This document shows positions 34,299-34,572 of a stretch of 35,625 nucleotides of DNA, piece after piece. Where the stretch lies: positions 1 through 35,625 of the forward strand of contig JALWTH010000394.1 of NCBI GenBank assembly GCA_027082975.1. The letters are read 5' to 3'. A program made the translations under genes and the position numbers. Position 1 is the stretch's first letter. Each line of letters begins with the position of its first letter. The notes under the pieces are model-generated. The model saw only the letters and a list, made by a program, of their open reading frames with translations, was not told the DNA's origin and searched no databases. Source of the DNA: Paracoccaceae bacterium (GTDB lineage: Bacteria; Pseudomonadota; Alphaproteobacteria; Rhodobacterales; Rhodobacteraceae).

Positions 34299-34572
34299 TT
34301 CCTGGGGCGTAGACCCACAAACCACGCGCCGCCAGTTTGGCAGATTTTCGTTCTGACCAGGCGCAAGGGCGCCGGAATAGTGGTGCTATTTCAAGCCCTT
34401 GCAACGCAGTCAGGGCGAAAATCCGCCAAACCCGAAGGGCGCGATCCTCGCTTCATCTCAATGGCTCGGGTCGCTTGCAAAGGGCACCACCCTGTGCGGC
34501 GCGCCCCAACCCATTGATATTTCGCGAGGATCGCGCTGGCGACGCGTGGTTTGTGGGCCTACGCCCCAAGAA
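34299..34572. repeat. Structured palindromic element: 37-bp terminal inverted repeats enclosing two long hairpins
   Basis: 34299-34335 matches the reverse complement of 34536-34572 at 34/37; inner hairpins 34335-34431 and 34439-34536. Confidence 0.88.

Follow-up and report, generated by a model that had tools for sequence, protein, structure and literature searches.

A hairpin module conserved behind differing ends in a probable IS5-type MITE from a Paracoccaceae bacterium

The window, by which we mean the whole 35,625-nt stretch of DNA that was analysed, carries a long palindrome between a HIG1 gene and an SDR gene. The initial annotation described it as a cloverleaf-like element, and a check of the sequence bears this out, with both the coordinates (34299-34572) and the pairings as given there. 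Folding of a 291-nt stretch as RNA gave -180.9 kcal/mol on the plus strand (shuffled sequences, -108.2 +/- 4.7; z -15.5) and -198.7 kcal/mol on the minus strand (z -17.0), and no shuffle of either strand was as stable as the native fold. The palindrome indeed spans 274 bp, but the element proper is the 262 bp from 34305 to 34566, because alignments with close copies from the same genome do not extend beyond this span; the outer 6 bp on each side are host target.

The element is bounded by terminal inverted repeats (TIRs) of 31 bp with 2 mismatches, evident from the sequence, the left one (GGGCGTAGACCCACAAACCACGCGCCGCCAG, 34305-34335, plus strand) pairing with the right one (34536-34566, minus strand). 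Hairpin B follows at 34336-34430, its functional strand being probably the plus strand as judged from the fold and from a bias of G.U over A.C mismatches. Within it lies a conserved 49-nt core (34358-34406, plus strand) that reads CAGGC-GCAAGGGC-GCC-GGAATAG-TGGTG-CTATTTC-AA-GCCCTTGC-AACG and scores 73.7 bits (E 3.2e-17, own genome) with our covariance model R1, to whose training set this copy belonged. Hairpin C (34439-34536, minus strand) is related to B and inverted, with the minus-strand apex CACAGGGTGGTGCCCTTTGCAAGCG; it was assigned from the fold and from the loop and reversed bias of related elements. Between B and C a mini-hairpin, CCCGAAGGG (34431-34439, plus strand), is evident in the sequence and paired in both minimum free energy structures. 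Hairpins B and C are real as first described, but with the mini-hairpin the fold becomes a four-way junction, not a three-way one. As noted at the outset, there is no protein-like open reading frame, nor does the element contain a transposase gene.

Two congeners retain the site without the element. In G003 (contig C59) and G004 (contig C204), the same gene neighbourhood is uninterrupted and the site reads GACCTGCTCAGGATCC, a short palindrome. The flanks TTCCTG (34299-34304) and CAAGAA (34567-34572) are therefore the left and right halves of the target palindrome and lie outside the element. At the empty sites the SDR protein ends in ...QDRILSRS*, whereas the window encodes ...QDRILGA*. From the sequence and the list of open reading frames, the last codons and the TAG stop (34559-34561) lie in the right TIR and are supplied by the element's GGGCGTAG, unlike in the G003 and G004 orthologues. 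The position between the HIG1 and SDR genes is correct, but since the right arm contributes the last SDR residues and the stop, the element is not purely intergenic. The empty sites also bear on the proposal that the palindrome is a structured RNA with a regulatory role at the HIG1-adenosyltransferase-etf locus. A very stable fold does lie upstream of HIG1, but the orthologous locus of both congeners lacks it, which already contradicts the proposal, and the same kind of element occurs at dozens of unrelated loci. Rfam 15 likewise gave no match to the window stretch at E<=1, nor to the hairpins of 20 further loci at E<=0.5. A role specific to this locus is extremely improbable.

Copies of the element are numerous. 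In the window's own genome (G000; 2.99 Mb in 418 contigs) there are 59 places that match it, and two element families with like interiors and different ends can be distinguished. Family A, with ends GGGCGTAGACCCATAAACC..., consists of the window copy and L002-L007, seven close copies in all; the other six match the window copy fully or partly, and beyond the element their sequences differ. The sister family B has ends GGCTCAGGACCCATYAATC..., and its TIR is matched 72 times in this genome (36 forward, 36 reverse). Elements are near 159, 212, 263 and 307 bp in size, classes explained by one hairpin being lost or by extra sequence in hairpin B. TA is present on both sides in 30 of the 43 distinct family-B elements from this genome and its relatives, and the family-A copy L002 shows a TA|TA target duplication, but none is visible at the window copy. 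TA together with the first base of the element, G, makes TAG in 78 of 89 family-B flanks. At 34 of these 78, the rebuilt TAG is exactly where an open frame of 318 nt or more terminates, compared with 11 for each of the other two frames.

Some copies depart from the common form. The 307-bp copies L118, L122, L124, L126 and L127 (G000) have in common a partly palindromic insert of 40-50 nt (TCGTTCGCCGGGAAAACCGTCCACTGGAAGG...) within the hairpin B apex, and in G007 the tip of hairpin B in L034, L036, L042 and L044 is TTAACTCGCTGATAATCAACCAGATTACGGCACTCGTTAA, which differs from the usual apex. In G207, L107 contains a perfect 40-bp palindrome at about 1481-1521, TAGGCTCAGGACCCATTAAGATTAATGGGTCCTGAGCCTA, that amounts to two fused family-B ends with the interior absent, and L106 (about 1460-1521) comes close to this minimum but has a tiny hairpin. 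Solo family-B ends with no partner end close by are found in L094 (G000, contig C98), L117 and L119, and one of these adjoins another long palindrome, CATTTTGCCGGAGAAATTCGGTG....

The ends of the sister family also occur on insertion sequences (ISs). In L098 an IS of 846 bp is bounded by near-matching family-B ends, TAGGCTCAGAACTCATTGATC...GATTAATGGGTCCTGAGCCTA, and an IS5-family IS in L100 is bounded likewise; the proteins of both match NCBIfam transpos_IS5_3, Pfam DUF4096 and DDE_Tnp_1. L297 is also counted among the autonomous elements with sister-family ends. On an Actibacterium plasmid, an annotated IS5 transposase begins some 75 bp beyond the first base of an exact 22-mer of the family-B TIR, and in Novosphingobium an IS5 transposase ends in a TIR resembling that of its own MITE version. 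The searches found no autonomous IS with the family-A TIR and none for the elements of Microbulbifer, whose TIR was also without a match on plasmids. The own genome, a draft of 418 contigs, yielded no intact IS with these ends; it does have a decayed IS remnant with a sister-family end (contig C158) and two IS5 copies (C13 and C149) whose ends, GGTC(A/G)CATACCCATA, are related yet distinct. On the same two contigs (L087 in C13; L088 in C149, 550-1490), IS5 and MITEs abut with single TA dinucleotides in common, in the order MITE-A, IS5, MITE-B-like end, an arrangement of serial insertion beside pre-existing ends.

The TA target duplications and the presence of the same ends on IS5-family ISs elsewhere point to a non-autonomous element probably mobilised in trans. 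With high confidence we regard it as a non-autonomous MITE of IS5 type, probably moved in trans by an IS5-type transposase. The initial annotation had listed a MITE-like element among its candidates, and the multiple copies, the TIRs, the duplications in the sister family, the empty sites and the ISs with sister-family ends all agree with that choice. Like other MITEs derived from the IS5 family, it is multicopy, lacks an open reading frame and has TIRs resembling those of IS5-family elements (transpos_IS5_3), with TA duplications seen in the sister family and in L002. At 262 bp it is also below the size of about 500 bp that marks a MITE. It differs in that its interior is no remnant of a deleted IS and is common to MITEs with unrelated ends. 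An origin of the interior in the partner IS was considered and rejected, as the IS loci L098, L100, L297 and L349 do not contain the R1 hairpin.

Another candidate was a large REP/BIME-type repeat moved by a Y1 (RAYT) transposase. The pair of inverted hairpins, mostly extragenic, does resemble a BIME, and many of the gammaproteobacterial carriers have Y1 genes. Y1_Tnp (PF01797) is nevertheless absent from G000, G003, G004, G007, G207 and ten further genomes among the 35 with the hairpin, and the element has DDE-type TIRs, with TA duplications in the sister family, needs no RAYT and has other conserved hairpin loops. For the copies within the window's own bacterial family, such an origin is contradicted by the lack of a Y1 gene in the closest carriers, and we consider it very improbable overall.

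What sets this IS5-type MITE apart is its interior, where hairpin B is built on a rigid core, AAGG-N-[8 bp]-GCA-[7 bp]-TGGTT-[7 bp]-AA-[8 bp]-AACG. A scan of genome contigs for the exact apex GSAATAGTGGTKCTATTTCAA returned at least 119 stretches, and the carriers among the matches listed are Rhodobacterales, Sphingomonadales, Microbulbifer, Paraglaciecola and Clostridia metagenome-assembled genomes (MAGs), the Clostridia copies coming from this exact-motif scan only. The geometry around the apex is nearly constant (AAGG-N-8 nt-GCA-apex-8 nt-AACG). In 66 distinct flanking stems from the scan, for which pairing was not a selection criterion, 7.06 of 8 positions are paired on average, compared with 4.68 when partners are shuffled (the maximum of 1000 shuffles being 5.12). 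An alignment of 37 sequences, restricted to those with 6 or more of the 8 stem-2 pairs, is 94.2% paired vs 77.5% when shuffled, with a covariation score of 0.476 vs 0.152. For a set of 70 sequences, aligned by the covariance model itself and hence biased towards it, the corresponding values are 94.7% vs 68.5% and 0.681 vs 0.185. The compensatory substitutions that would be expected of a selected structure were found in this set at all 15 pairs, in counts that ignore kinship. The R1 model of the core has matches in 33 of 399 Pseudomonadota genomes, and a decoy model built from the same sequences in reverse has matches in none of the 399. In the Clostridia MAG RGIG3058 (L139 and others), about 18 loci have near-identical hairpins, often close to contig ends, which suggests an element in very many copies at which the assembly breaks. 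The open-access papers searched held no account of the hairpin.

Such stems could also arise in a plain DNA palindrome in which repair between the arms, or template switching, keeps the two matched, the fold having no further function. The TIR stems would suit this, being nearly perfect and without strand bias, and even the short flanks of target DNA at the window copy match one another. In hairpin B, however, the loops AAGG/AACG and GCA/AA and the helix lengths are conserved while the stems change, which counts against a plain palindrome because repair would erase the loops. G.U also greatly exceeds A.C on one strand of hairpin B, with the reverse in hairpin C. We therefore hold the repair reading to be improbable, and the interior is, from these comparisons, very likely a selected module.

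The strand bias deserves closer description, its events being not fully independent. On the apex-bearing strand, stem 2 of the 66 stems unselected for pairing contains 44 G.U and 8 A.C mismatches. After de-replication at 90% and with symmetric scoring, the counts are 32 vs 10 for stem 2 and 116 vs 54 for stem 1. TIR stems from 45 elements across lineages have no such bias (19 G.U vs 27 A.C), as expected of double-stranded inheritance. TIR pairs within genomes do give 64 vs 32, which we ascribe to shared ancestry because the cross-lineage set shows no excess. When hairpin C is read on the B strand, the bias is reversed (57 G.U vs 80 A.C), and its loop in related elements is mostly ACCA on that strand, which is TGGT on the other. 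The reversed bias and the TGGT loop together imply that the element has two related hairpins, one per strand. The same inverted twin arrangement is found in the gammaproteobacterial elements L272, L278, L284, L291 and L292, and a Clostridia MAG (L165) has the twin hairpins in opposite order. An excess of G.U over A.C on one strand only, with unbiased TIRs, points to constraint on one folded single strand; the excess fits RNA, or single-stranded DNA with G.T as the better mismatch. The early suggestion of a structured RNA is thus not upheld as one specific to the HIG1-etf locus, but the conservation, compensatory changes and one-strand bias of hairpin B across phyla support its structural part.

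Behind this interior the ends vary widely. Among 29 R1 matches tested in other genomes, 21 lie within TIR-bounded elements, defined by inverted repeats scoring at least 14, compared with 2 of 285 mismatched flank pairs that served as the control. The ends fall into at least a dozen unrelated kinds, for example TATACCCAAG..., GGAACCTCTGCACGAATC, CTAGTGTCCTACCC..., AGAGCACCATATAG... and CTAACACCAACAC.... The spans, by contrast, gather at 262-270 bp, and a further group lies at about 160-190 bp. Where examined, the long spans are the twin-hairpin form and the short ones the single-hairpin form. As these comparisons show, in both Alpha- and Gammaproteobacteria the two-hairpin module recurs in elements that are classed as MITEs and whose TIRs are unrelated, and the core hairpin is found also in Clostridia. 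That it recurs behind differing ends in distant bacteria suggests a function for the hairpin itself.

One possible function lies in the mRNA. Cis-acting mRNA hairpins have been proposed for other bacterial MITEs, and after insertion at a stop codon a hairpin in the 3' UTR could protect the transcript, direct its processing (RNase III/E) or terminate it; the inverted pair would make the effect independent of orientation. Stop codons are in fact often hit with TAG rebuilt, and an excess of G.U on one strand is compatible with RNA. At the window copy, hairpin C on the minus strand is the first that the SDR transcript reaches. Copies in Microbulbifer, of which two genomes have about 33 and about 50 TIR pairs in a single-hairpin version of 164 bp, bear on both sides of the matter. 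Several genes end in the terminal CTAG, and divergent (promoter) contexts are rare (2 of 43 Microbulbifer copies), but single-hairpin copies between co-directional genes show no preference for either orientation (15 sense vs 14 antisense), so that the direction of host transcription does not explain the strand constraint and a cis effect gains no support. Moreover, no U-tract follows the hairpins, and the scarcity of TA in GC-rich coding DNA can account for the landing sites. A cis-acting role is therefore unlikely.

Known small elements offer partial parallels. ERIC of enterobacteria is also a small palindromic intergenic element, but a relationship was rejected, an E. coli ERIC copy being without the R1 hairpin (best score 5.7 bits, outside the element). 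NEMIS/Correia and YPAL are short inverted-repeat elements with transcripts that fold; they form a single long stem as opposed to the four-way junction found here, and are set apart by description. NEMIS RNA is cut by RNase III, according to a reference cited in PMC10969869. The nearest published hint, compared by description only, is QMITE2 of Coxiella burnetii, a MITE with a stable stem found at the 3' ends of genes, one copy of which gives rise to a small RNA and for which the authors noted alphaproteobacterial relatives (PMC5896051). By the same description, QMITE2 differs in having direct repeats of 7-11 nt and a GTAG REP core targeted by IS1111 (PMC5896051).

Overall, the evidence is likely best explained by an IS5-type MITE that carries a conserved two-hairpin module, kept as the ends change. 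An IS5-family transposase would bind the TIRs and insert the element at TA or TA-like sites, and stop codons would be tolerated targets because TA and the first base G rebuild TAG. At somewhat under even chances, as far as the sequences can tell, selection acts on the hairpins in the form of a folded single strand, RNA or DNA, that is read by a putative widespread host factor, which would help the element to spread or persist. Two inverted hairpins would let either strand offer one correctly folded copy. The terminal repeats would change to suit whichever transposase is available, with the inner module kept. Tentatively, this could extend to a phylum-crossing module that outlives its ends, recruits unrelated cut-and-paste transposases and is read as a single strand by a putative conserved host factor, its chassis being either inverted twin hairpins (about 265 bp) or one hairpin (about 164 bp).

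Bacterial MITEs are generally regarded as shrunken insertion sequences in which the ends alone are important. Here the reverse is seen, with ends that vary and an inside that is conserved in several bacterial classes. MITEs as such are already known, and what appears to be new is the conserved interior. The covariance model provides a means to find and classify small elements that annotation has missed, and a selected internal nucleic-acid function of MITEs, together with its putative host factor, would become directly testable.
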